DNA from: Desulfonauticus sp.
GTDB lineage: Bacteria; Desulfobacterota; Desulfovibrionia; Desulfovibrionales; Desulfonatronovibrionaceae
DNA length: 64,000 bases
Assembly (NCBI GenBank): GCA_030950395.1
Contig: JAUZRP010000040.1
Location: forward strand, 1-64,000
Direction of reading: 5' to 3'
The position numbers were made by a program, and so were the translations under genes. Positions 25,861 to 54,679 of the stretch are shown here, one piece after another (the stretch's first letter is position 1; each line of letters opens with the position of its first letter). The notes below the pieces were generated by a model. The model saw nothing but the letters and a program-made list of their open reading frames with translations, had not been told where the DNA came from and searched no databases.

Positions 25861-25990
25861 GAAAAAATTATTTTAAAAATTTGTGTTTTGGGTTAAAAGT
25901 GTTACATCCTAACCATCTTTGCACATTGAAAATTTTAAATTATTAAAAATAACTATCCAACAATTTAACATTTATTTTTGTAATTTGTAA
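25861..25990. repeat. Diverged copy of the AT-rich intergenic element (copy A)
   Basis: The block AATTTGTGTTTTGG (25878-25891) is identical to 34690-34703 and is followed by the related GTTAAAAGTGT...CTAACCA, as in copy B. The left end GAAAAAATTATTTTAAA (25861-25877) is identical to 47462-47478 of copy D. The right boundary is unclear and no clean terminal inverted repeats are seen. Confidence 0.5.
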
Positions 25991-34639: not shown

Positions 34640-34671
34640 AGGAGATTGTACCTCAAAATAGACTAAAAGAG

Positions 34672-34794
34672 GTAACTGCCAAAACACAAAATTTGTGTTT
34701 TGGCAGTTAAAGTGTCAAATTCTAACCAGATTAAATTATTGAAAACAGAACTTGTTATATATAGTATATATAGCTACTGTAAATAATTTTTGCA
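34672..34794. repeat. AT-rich intergenic element, copy B
   Basis: It shares ordered blocks with copy C: GTAACTGC, TTGTGTTTT (34693-34701), TCAAATTCTAACCA (34715-34728), TTAAATTATTGAAAA (34731-34745), GAACTTGT (34748-34755) and TAATTTTTGCA (34784-34794). It contains an 18-bp palindrome at its left end (34673-34709). It lies between pilU and the next gene. Confidence 0.75.
34673..34709. terminator. Long palindrome after pilU (possible terminator)
   Basis: Arms of 18 bases (34673-34690 and 34692-34709) are perfectly complementary with a single A in the middle. No T-run follows on either strand, so classical termination is uncertain. In RNA it would make a very stable hairpin downstream of pilU. 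Confidence 0.45.
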
Positions 34795-34893
34795 ATTGAA
34801 TCTTTAAAAACACTTTTTTGGGGAAAGTGGTCAAGTTGGTAAATATATTATAATAATTTTGGCAGGTAATTTTTATAAAAAAGGGTTTATCTT

Positions 34894-35487
34894 ATGAAAA
34901 TAGAGTGTAAAAATTGTGGCAAAGAAATAGTGATTCCTGATGAAAAGGTAAAGGATGTCACCAAGTTCGTCGTTACCTGTCCCAAGTGCTCTGCTCGCAC
35001 TCTGGTTGATAAGACTAAAATATCTAATCAATTAGAGCAAAGTTTGTTGCCTGAAACTGAAATTAAAGTCGAGTACGAACCAGACAATATTCCTTTGGGA
35101 CAGAAAGCTGCTTTTTTGTTTTTATTTGATCCAAATCTCTCGACAGAGGTAAAAGAATTTTTAGAAAAACACAATTATTTTGTACGTGATGTACAAGATG
35201 TTAAAGAAGGTTTAGCTCGTTTTGAATTGAATAATTATGAGCTTGTTTTGTTAGAAGAGAGCAAAGAGAGTTTGATTTTAATTAAAGAGATCAATCAATG
35301 GCAACTTTTAAAAAGAAGAAATACAAATGTTATTGTTTTGGGTGATAAATATAAAGATTTTGATCAAAAATCTGCATTTTTGTGGGGCGTTAATTTTTAT
35401 TTAAATAAGAAAAGTGGCAATTTGAGCGAAAAATTAGAGCAGTGTTTTTTTAAATATGAAAAGTATTTAGAACATTGGAAGATATAA
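34894..35487 (+). CDS. Zinc-ribbon plus degenerate receiver-domain protein
   Basis: The 197-residue protein begins with an MJ0042-type zinc ribbon (C-x2-C at IECKNCGK and C-x2-C at VTCPKCSA, residues about 4-33). From about 68 on it follows the receiver fold: AAFLFLFDPNLSTEVKEFLEKH, YFVRDVQDVKEGL, then NYELVLLEES where the phospho-acceptor Asp is replaced by Glu. The acidic pair is also incomplete, so it is likely not phosphorylated. Nearby pilus genes suggest, but do not prove, a role in surface motility. ATG 34894; weak ribosome binding site. Confidence 0.65.
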   Translation: MKIECKNCGKEIVIPDEKVKDVTKFVVTCPKCSARTLVDKTKISNQLEQSLLPETEIKVEYEPDNIPLGQKAAFLFLFDPNLSTEVKEFLEKHNYFVRDVQDVKEGLARFELNNYELVLLEESKESLILIKEINQWQLLKRRNTNVIVLGDKYKDFDQKSAFLWGVNFYLNKKSGNLSEKLEQCFFKYEKYLEHWKI

Positions 35488-35521
35488 AACATAGTTAAAT
35501 ATTAACGTTAATGTGATAATT

Positions 35522-35788
35522 ATGGTCAAGAAAGTTTTACAAGCAAAATTAAAAAATTGTCTGGAAACCATTTTAGAGTTTGAAAATACGTTGTTATTTT
35601 ATAGTAAAAGCAGTGTTACTAATTTTTCTGAGGAAATAAATTTTCTTAAAAATTCTTTAAAAAAATTAGAAGAGATTGAATTTGACGATAAAGATTTGGA
35701 GAGAATAGAAAAAATTACTTTAAAGTTTTTAGCAGAGATCAAAGAGCTGGTAAGACAAAAAATAATTATCAAAACAGCTGTTCAATAA
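35522..35788 (+). CDS. Hypothetical small helical protein
   Basis: I do not recognise this 88-residue protein. It is highly charged and predicted to be alpha-helical throughout (EINFLKNSLKKLEEIE and KFLAEIKELVRQK), with no membrane segment. ATG 35522 or GTG 35513 could be the start; neither has a clear ribosome binding site. Its gene follows the zinc-ribbon/receiver gene by about 30 bases and may be co-transcribed with it. Confidence 0.5.
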   Translation: MVKKVLQAKLKNCLETILEFENTLLFYSKSSVTNFSEEINFLKNSLKKLEEIEFDDKDLERIEKITLKFLAEIKELVRQKIIIKTAVQ

Positions 35789-35823
35789 AAATCAGACAGA
35801 ATAGAAAACTTTGTTTGACGTAA

Positions 35824-35951
35824 CTGCAAAATCCCATTGTGTTTTTGATTAAATTATCAAATTGTAACCAACTTAAATTGTTGAAAAAATATCGTTGAAC
35901 TTGTAATCTGTTGCGTTACTTGACAATTAACTGCTTAAAATAATTTTGCAG
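35824..35951. repeat. AT-rich intergenic element with terminal inverted repeats, copy C
   Basis: The element is bounded by CTGCAAAAT (35824-35832) and its exact inverse ATTTTGCAG (35943-35951), giving a 128-bp unit. It shares six ordered blocks with copy B. With copy D (reverse) it shares TTTTTGATTAAATT.TCAA (35842-35860), CGTTGAAC.TGTA (35893-35905) and TTAAAATAATTTT (35935-35947). No open reading frame lies inside. Confidence 0.8.
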
Positions 35952-36154
35952 GTGGATTTTATAAATTTTATAAAGGGTACTTGTGAGAATATAGAGAGAT
36001 AAGATTATACGTCTAAAATGTTATTTGGTTGTTAGTTTATTTATGTGTTAAAATATTTTTTTATTTTTTTGTATAAATTTTGGAAAGTTGAAAACAATGG
36101 TTATAAAGATAGATAACAAATTGGAAGTTAAAGTTAAAATAGAGTATTAAATTT
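35952..36154. other. AT-rich stretch between copy C and the ftsB-like gene
   Basis: About 200 bases, very AT-rich, without a gene, clear hairpin or convincing promoter that I can support. Confidence 0.4.
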
Positions 36155-41052: not shown

Positions 41053-41121
41053 GGTAAGTGCAGAGAATATTGTTTAAAATAATTTTTGCTGTTGGTTCTT
41101 AATTGTAGCTAGTTTGTAGTT

Positions 41122-47451: not shown

Positions 47452-47455
47452 AGCT

Positions 47456-47577
47456 CCAACTGAAAAAATTATTTTAAATAGTTAACTACACGTTCAACGA
47501 AAAAATAAAAAAATAATAATTTAAATTAGTAACTTGACAATTTAATCAAAAAAAACAAGATAGGGTTTTGCAGTTGC
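47456..47577. repeat. AT-rich intergenic element with terminal inverted repeats, copy D (reverse)
   Basis: The copy is in the reverse orientation and bounded by CAACTGAAAA (47458-47467 region) and TTTTGCAGTTG (47566-47576). The reverse complement shares TTTTTGATTAAATT.TCAA, CGTTGAAC.TGTA (12 of 13) and TTAAAATAATTTT (13 of 13) with copy C. It lies immediately after the EF-G gene. Confidence 0.75.
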
Positions 47578-47800
47578 ATCTTTAAAAGATTTTTTTTAGA
47601 CTTAGCAATAAAAATTTTTTTAATTATCTTACCTGTAAAATAGAGAATTAAATACTTAACATTAATTGGGATAAGAAGAGTAGATCCTCTTAGATTTAAT
47701 AAAATTGAAAAACAGTTGCTAAAAATTAAATTTTGGCTTATTAATTATATAAAATTGTTTTTACGGGAGTTTTGATTGACCCTAAAAGGAGGAGGTAAGT
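47578..47800. other. AT-rich stretch between copy D and uspA
   Basis: About 220 bases with no gene. It will contain the uspA promoter, which I cannot place. No hairpin of note. Confidence 0.4.
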
Positions 47801-53578: not shown

Positions 53579-54679
53579 ATGCAACAATTTATACGTAAAC
53601 ATTTACTTGCTTTTAAGGCCTATGAACCAGGTCTGAGTATAGAGGAAATCCAAGCTAAATATAATCTAGGTAAAATTATCAAACTGGCTAGCAATGAAAA
53701 TCCTTTGGGCACATCTCCCTGTGTGATACAGGTGTTAAAAAATTATCTGCCCTATGCCTTTAGATATCCTAGAGAAGGAAATGTGGCCTTAAAAAAAGAA
53801 TTGGCCAAGTTTTTAAGCGTCCCAGAGGCCAATATCGTTATTGGCAATGGTTCGGATGAAATTATAGATCTTTTGATACGCCTTTTAGTAGAGCCAGGTG
53901 AAAATAGTATTTTAACTTTTCGTCCTTGTTTTAGTATTTATAAAACTCAGGCCCGCGTACATAAAGCTACTTTGAAGCAGGTTCCTTTAAATAAAGATTT
54001 TTCTTTTAATTTAGACGAGTTACTAAATCAGATTGATGCTACAACCAGGCTAATTTTTATTACCAATCCAGATAATCCCTCTGGATATGCCGTTGAAAAG
54101 CAGGTTTTACAAGACTTTGCCCAGGAGCTCCCTCCAGGATGTTTTTTGGTTATAGATGAAGCGTATATTGATTTTGCCGATCCTCTGGAGCATTATTCTT
54201 TTATTCAGGAATTTTCAGCTTATCCTCAGGTAATTTTTTTACGAACGTTTTCCAAATTATTTGGTCTAGCTGGATTGCGTTTGGGATATGCCGTGTTAAA
54301 TGAGGATCTGGCAGATTATTTCTGGCGAATACGTTTGCCTTTTAGTGTAAATATTTTGGCCGAAAAAGCAGGTCTTGCTGCTTTGCAAGATACGTTTTTT
54401 TATCAGGAAACCAGAAGGGTTGTTTTAGAGGGAAGAAAATTTTTAAGTACAAAACTTCAAGAATTAGGCTGTGAAGTATTTCCCTCTCAAGCTAATTTTA
54501 TTTTATTTAAGCCCCCAATTGAGGCCAAAGACGTGTTTGATTATTTGTTAAAAAAAGGGCTTATTATTAGACGGCTTACCTCTTATGGACTTCCAGATTT
54601 TTTGCGAGTTAGTGTGGGCACAGAAGAAGAAAATAAGATTTTTCTAACTTATTTGCAGGAGATTTTAGGTGACAGATGA
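53579..54679 (+). CDS. hisC: Histidinol-phosphate aminotransferase
   Basis: The 366-residue fold-type I PLP enzyme has LASNENPLGTSP, RYPREGN, GNGSDEIIDLLIRLL, ITNPDNPSGYAV and VIDEAYIDFADP. The PLP-lysine is in RTFSKLFGLAGLRLGYA. It converts imidazole-acetol phosphate to histidinol phosphate; related activities on aromatic amino acids are possible. The gene starts 1 base after pilQ and overlaps cmk by 11 bases. Confidence 0.9.
   Translation: MQQFIRKHLLAFKAYEPGLSIEEIQAKYNLGKIIKLASNENPLGTSPCVIQVLKNYLPYAFRYPREGNVALKKELAKFLSVPEANIVIGNGSDEIIDLLIRLLVEPGENSILTFRPCFSIYKTQARVHKATLKQVPLNKDFSFNLDELLNQIDATTRLIFITNPDNPSGYAVEKQVLQDFAQELPPGCFLVIDEAYIDFADPLEHYSFIQEFSAYPQVIFLRTFSKLFGLAGLRLGYAVLNEDLADYFWRIRLPFSVNILAEKAGLAALQDTFFYQETRRVVLEGRKFLSTKLQELGCEVFPSQANFILFKPPIEAKDVFDYLLKKGLIIRRLTSYGLPDFLRVSVGTEEENKIFLTYLQEILGDR

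Follow-up and report, generated by a model that had tools for sequence, protein, structure and literature searches.

A MITE family in Desulfonauticus sp. and a candidate IS1182-like partner

Prokaryotic MITEs such as Correia elements, ERIC and MITEAba12 are small, non-coding, intergenic sequences with terminal inverted repeats and target-site duplications, which can be nested in one another and reach dozens to hundreds of copies per genome (PMC10969869). The elements described there resemble in these respects the repeats that we characterize here from a 64,000-nucleotide stretch of Desulfonauticus sp. DNA (the window), and differ from them in their ends and partner; the review mentions neither IS1182 nor Desulfo- organisms. 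REP sequences, which RAYT transposases move, and derivatives of IS200-IS605 are also intergenic, present in many copies and equipped with a terminal hairpin at one end, but the family here has genuine inverted repeats at its ends, duplicates 6 bp of its target and has a putative DDE partner. IS200/IS605 elements are not known to make duplications, and ERIC and Correia sequences are not known to be related to the present family.

The IS1182 family (NF033551; IS1272, ISPse1) has a related DDE transposase and a length of 1.65-1.93 kb (PMC5678879, PMC3281130), compared with 1.86-1.90 kb for the ISs considered below. IS1272 inserts without a duplication, taking the place of an inverted repeat (PMC5678879), and ISPse1 makes a 4-bp duplication (PMC3281130), whereas the duplication of the MITEs described here is 6 bp. 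The literature searched, with subscription journals outside the search, yielded no report of Desulfovibrionales MITEs and none of an IS1182-derived MITE. What we describe is a new family of an already known kind of element, the family itself not being found in that literature. It adds a well-supported MITE lineage for sulfate-reducing bacteria, with a likely link to a little-studied IS1182-like transposase.

Copies in the window and in the source genome

The preliminary description of the window had reported repeated intergenic elements with terminal inverted repeats and had read them as MITE-like and non-autonomous. We searched for such elements with nhmmer and with two models, namely R1, a sequence-only model trained on 27 copies of the source genome (G000; 2.2 Mb, 172 contigs), and R2, which was built from four genomes. 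Other G codes denote relatives' genomes in the comparison set. The following features were obtained in the window:

34669..34802, + strand: MITE copy A, full length (R1 E 5.3e-18; nhmmer 59.2 bits)
35817..35958, + strand: MITE copy B, full length (R1 E 1.2e-21; nhmmer 80.5 bits)
47453..47580, - strand: MITE copy C, full length (R1 E 1.4e-19; nhmmer 67.2 bits)
41068..41097, + strand: probable right-end MITE fragment, not full length (R1 model positions 100-129, E 0.0048 in the window)
25875..25980, + strand: candidate D, a possible decayed core without recognisable ends (R2 E 0.0044; nhmmer 10.9 bits)

Copies A, B and C, recovered by both R1 and nhmmer (nhmmer E values within the window from 2.5e-17 to 6.4e-24), bear out the repeats reported earlier. 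Copy B is ~12 bp longer than the family consensus, and copy C lies in the gap that separates EF-G2 from Usp, immediately after the stop codon of EF-G2. With 63% A+T in the window, similarity among AT-rich intergenic sequences might arise by chance. However, in Markov-1 randomisations of the window totalling 1.92 Mb, nhmmer scores did not exceed 11.1 bits, compared with 59-80 bits for the three copies, and the terminal pattern GAYNYAACTGCAAAAN, with one mismatch allowed, matched the source genome 117 times versus 7 times for the reversed control. These results refute chance similarity for copies A, B and C, and as an account of the repeats its probability is close to nil.

Candidate D can be explained by chance. 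The preliminary description had counted it as a diverged copy (25861-25990), but it is not among the R1 matches in the window up to E=10, and its similarity is confined to the core: 10.9 bits over model positions 20-76, against 11.1 bits for the best score in random sequence and 6.3 bits for the best of 500 shuffles of D, and, with R2, E=0.0044 over model positions 19-120. An ORF-internal stretch (53958-54056) outscores it with R2 (E=0.0014). The ends previously quoted for D differ from those of the element. Its membership in the family is doubtful, and D would at best represent a remnant core without ends.

Further copies are dispersed through the source genome, which clearly goes against the refuting condition set in the preliminary description, a genome without any. 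With copy B as blastn query, at least 40 matching places were found, down to E 1e-19, and R1 gave at least 128 matches at E<=1 and at least 113 at E<1e-3 with 150 candidates scored, some of the 113 being halves of a single copy that is split in two. A search of the plasmid collection did not reveal the element.

From 73 full-length source-genome copies we derived a 130-bp consensus, GATGTAACTGCAAAAGCCCAAAATTTGCGTTTTTGATTAAATTGTCAAATTGTAACTAGCTTAAATTATTGAAAAAATTTTCTTGTTAAACTTGTATCTAACTGCTTAAAATAATTTTTGCAGTTGGATC. The element has the ends GAYGTAACTGCAAAA...TTTTTGCAGTTGGATC, outside of which conservation falls sharply from ~1.2 to 0.2 bits per base. Its terminal inverted repeats are imperfect and ~15 bp long (GAYGTAACTGCAAAA / GATCCAACTGCAAAA), extending beyond the 9 bp given earlier. 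The element is short, MITEs being under ~600 bp, and has no transposase gene: 97 of 106 copies, taken from stretches around copies and not as a genome-wide sample, overlap predicted ORFs by <10%. The median identity of the 73 copies to the consensus is 0.83, with A/T positions kept at 0.88 and G/C positions at 0.66, a difference consistent with decay in which mutation is biased toward A and T.

The left end of copy A (34670-34709) contains an unusual, nearly perfect 17-bp palindrome, AACTGCCAAAACACAAA/TTTGTGTTTTGGCAGTT, of which the consensus has a weak version only. It resembles what an inverted duplication of the terminal repeat would leave.

Target duplications, nested insertions and gene context

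In the source genome, 6-bp flanks on the two sides of the copies are identical at 0.59 of positions versus 0.47 in shuffled flank pairs (z 6.6). Exact 6-bp duplications border 15 of the 73 copies, where ~0.9 (0.87) would be expected by chance, and a 7-bp exact flank match is present at 6 of 73. Among younger copies in G005, 6-bp flank identity is 0.94 versus 0.50 (z 9.5), with a peak at 6 only, and an exact duplication was found for 13 of 18 copies versus 0.97 expected. The consensus of the duplicated target is TTWWAA. By eye, 6-bp duplications were also recognised in other genera, at single copies in G054 (TCACAA) and G003 (ATCCTT) and at two adjacent copies in G018 (GAGATA and ATTATA). The flanks of A, B and C match at 3 or 4 of 6 bases, so that it is the family as a whole, not the window copies, that supports the claim of a duplication.

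Three insertions are located within older MITE copies, all with the same core TTTTAA duplicated and with the host element resuming on both sides. One insert (G000:C13:43611-43788), ~180 bp long, is a different element whose ends, GATGTAATTGCAAAAT / GATTCAGTTGCAAAAT, are similar to those of the MITE; it may represent a second MITE family on which the same group of transposases acts. A comparison of gene order further showed that the orthologous gap between EF-G2 and Usp is ~90 bp long and element-free in two congeners, versus 349 bp with copy C here; gene order was compared instead of DNA-level empty sites because the congeners are too distant (EF-G2 64-68% identical). The duplications, nested insertions and element-free site, together with the dispersed copies, sharp borders, inverted repeats and intergenic position, and with the IS1182-like transposon with the same ends described below, support the earlier reading of a MITE-like non-autonomous element.

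Paired neighbouring MITE copies were observed at G000:C105:133113-133338 and G000:C13:47487-47748, with an apparent shared target duplication between them.

The copies with context data lie between 64 codirectional, 25 divergent and 10 convergent gene pairs, a distribution close to the shares of intergenic bases in these classes (5928, 2389 and 1305, respectively). Between codirectional genes, 29 copies have the same and 35 the opposite orientation, without preference. This placement fits insertion anywhere followed by loss of gene-breaking copies, and the context gives no indication of a function coupled to transcription. An IHF site in the element was considered and rejected, with 0 of 73 copies versus 1.8 expected by chance.

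These data bear on the possibility that the repeats are a structured RNA or a host regulatory element, conserved in place and immobile. Such an element could account for a length and core retained across genera and for a right-end hairpin whose pairing survives changes on both sides, but Rfam was searched without a match, no consensus RNA fold was found among the source-genome copies, orientation relative to genes is unbiased, and a model search of the other two genomes of the source genus detected no element. Copies nested in one another likewise speak against immobility, and the target-site duplications refute this reading as the sole explanation; we regard it as very improbable. Transposition can explain the ~113 AT-rich intergenic repeats per genome, and a regulatory reading needs further evidence.

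An IS1182-like transposase as candidate partner

We consider it very likely that the repeats are MITEs spread in trans by a DDE transposase, most probably an IS1182-like one. According to this model, the ~130-bp non-coding MITEs with their ~15-bp terminal inverted repeats would be unable to move alone, and the transposase would act in trans on their ends. It would cut AT-rich TTWWAA targets with a 6-bp stagger, which would leave 6-bp direct repeats. The enzyme would most likely be the IS1182-like transposase of ~1.86-1.90 kb ISs with the same ends.

Candidate transposases were sought as DDE_Tnp_1 proteins in six genomes and then with a profile of two homologues (from G000 and G008) over 247 Desulfovibrionales genomes; the profile search found relatives in few of the 247, and one in G015 was added later. 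The source-genome transposase (C136:31734-33446) lies within a 1.88-kb unit, no other copy of that IS being recognisable there. At one end of the unit, GATCCAACTGCAAAAA is identical to the MITE right end; GACCCCGTTGCAAAA, at the opposite end, matches less well. The frame is broken by an in-frame TAA near its start; the homologue in G008, which is 62% identical, has an open frame and is bounded by GACTTTACTGCAAAAAGTCC and GAGTCAACTGCAAAAAGTCC. Given this TAA in the sole IS copy and a mean identity of 83% between the MITEs and their consensus, we infer that activity of the family has probably ceased in the source genome.

For both transposases, the best NCBIfam match is IS1182 (NF033551, E 1e-53 to 3e-60), with scores of 179.8 and 204.8 bits that lie below the 270-bit family cut-off, which is why we name them "IS1182-like" only. 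DDE and DUF772 domains are present, with PF13751 and PF01609 in both proteins and PF05598 in that of G008.

A CTGCAAAAAGTC-type end motif was found at nine of nine IS1182-like loci of the order (eight exact, one with a mismatch at a contig end), several of these loci having one end found only; where both ends were found, the IS is ~1.9 kb long (1.86-1.90 kb). The motif was detected at none of eight other DDE_Tnp_1 loci and at none of seven distant relatives from the phylum. Three of the latter seven, from other families of the phylum, have ends like GATGNNCTCGTAAAAA, a recognisable variant of GATGNNCTGCAAAAA, and may be accompanied by separate MITE families.

The MITEs might instead be moved by a different transposase, the IS1182-like ISs being merely similar-ended. 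The source-genome, G006 and G008 ISs show no clear 6-bp duplication at their flanks, whereas the MITEs have one of 6 bp, and several MITE-bearing genomes lack such a transposase. This latter gap is the main weakness of the partner assignment: none was found in the G005, G018 and G054 assemblies, which hold good MITEs, and the partner there is therefore missing, lost or different. A different mover is nevertheless unlikely given the distribution of the end motif between IS1182-like and other DDE_Tnp_1 loci, and given that the MITE and IS of G006 have 23 of 25 right-end bases in common and that the right end of the G000 MITE matches the G008 IS end at 75% over 44 bp. With an IS1182-like transposase as the mover, some relatives of IS1182 would seem to generate 6-bp duplications of the ordinary kind, in contrast to IS1272.

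An IS1634-family transposase at C49 was rejected as partner because its ends do not match, and the orphan terminal repeats of the source genome at which an autonomous partner was sought (18 stretches, ten proteins) yielded no transposase.

Distribution among Desulfovibrionales

Run on the 247 Desulfovibrionales genomes at a threshold of E<=1e-4, R2 matched 17 genomes from 7 genera and 2 families, mostly over the whole model; 13 of the 17 lie outside its training set. Per-genome copy counts from this survey are lower bounds, with at most 13 candidates scored in each genome. Copies outside the training genomes retain the length of the element and, in many cases, a core resembling TATAACTCTTTGATTTT. 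In G054, five copies score almost alike, which suggests recent activity; the related families of G005 and G054 both appear young.

At the right end, a hairpin is formed in G005, G008 and G018 by an inverted copy of the repeat (GCCTGCAAAAAGGGACTTTTTGCAGGC), while in G000 this inner repeat copy is degenerate. Two outer hairpin pairs change on both sides together between genomes, mainly in one split, that of G000 versus the rest. These elements may form an order-wide MITE lineage that keeps its length, a one-sided terminal hairpin and a TATAACTCTTTGATTTT-like core across two families while IS partners come and go. In that case selection may act on the interior itself, for instance because the transposase or a host protein recognises a site in it. 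This is a tentative idea, to which we give a modest chance of being correct.

Finally, G006 contains two inverted pairs of terminal repeats with spacings of just 36 and 44 bp (G006:C1:386565-386600 and C4:248703-248746, respectively), which are possibly minimal, hairpin-only derivatives of the element.
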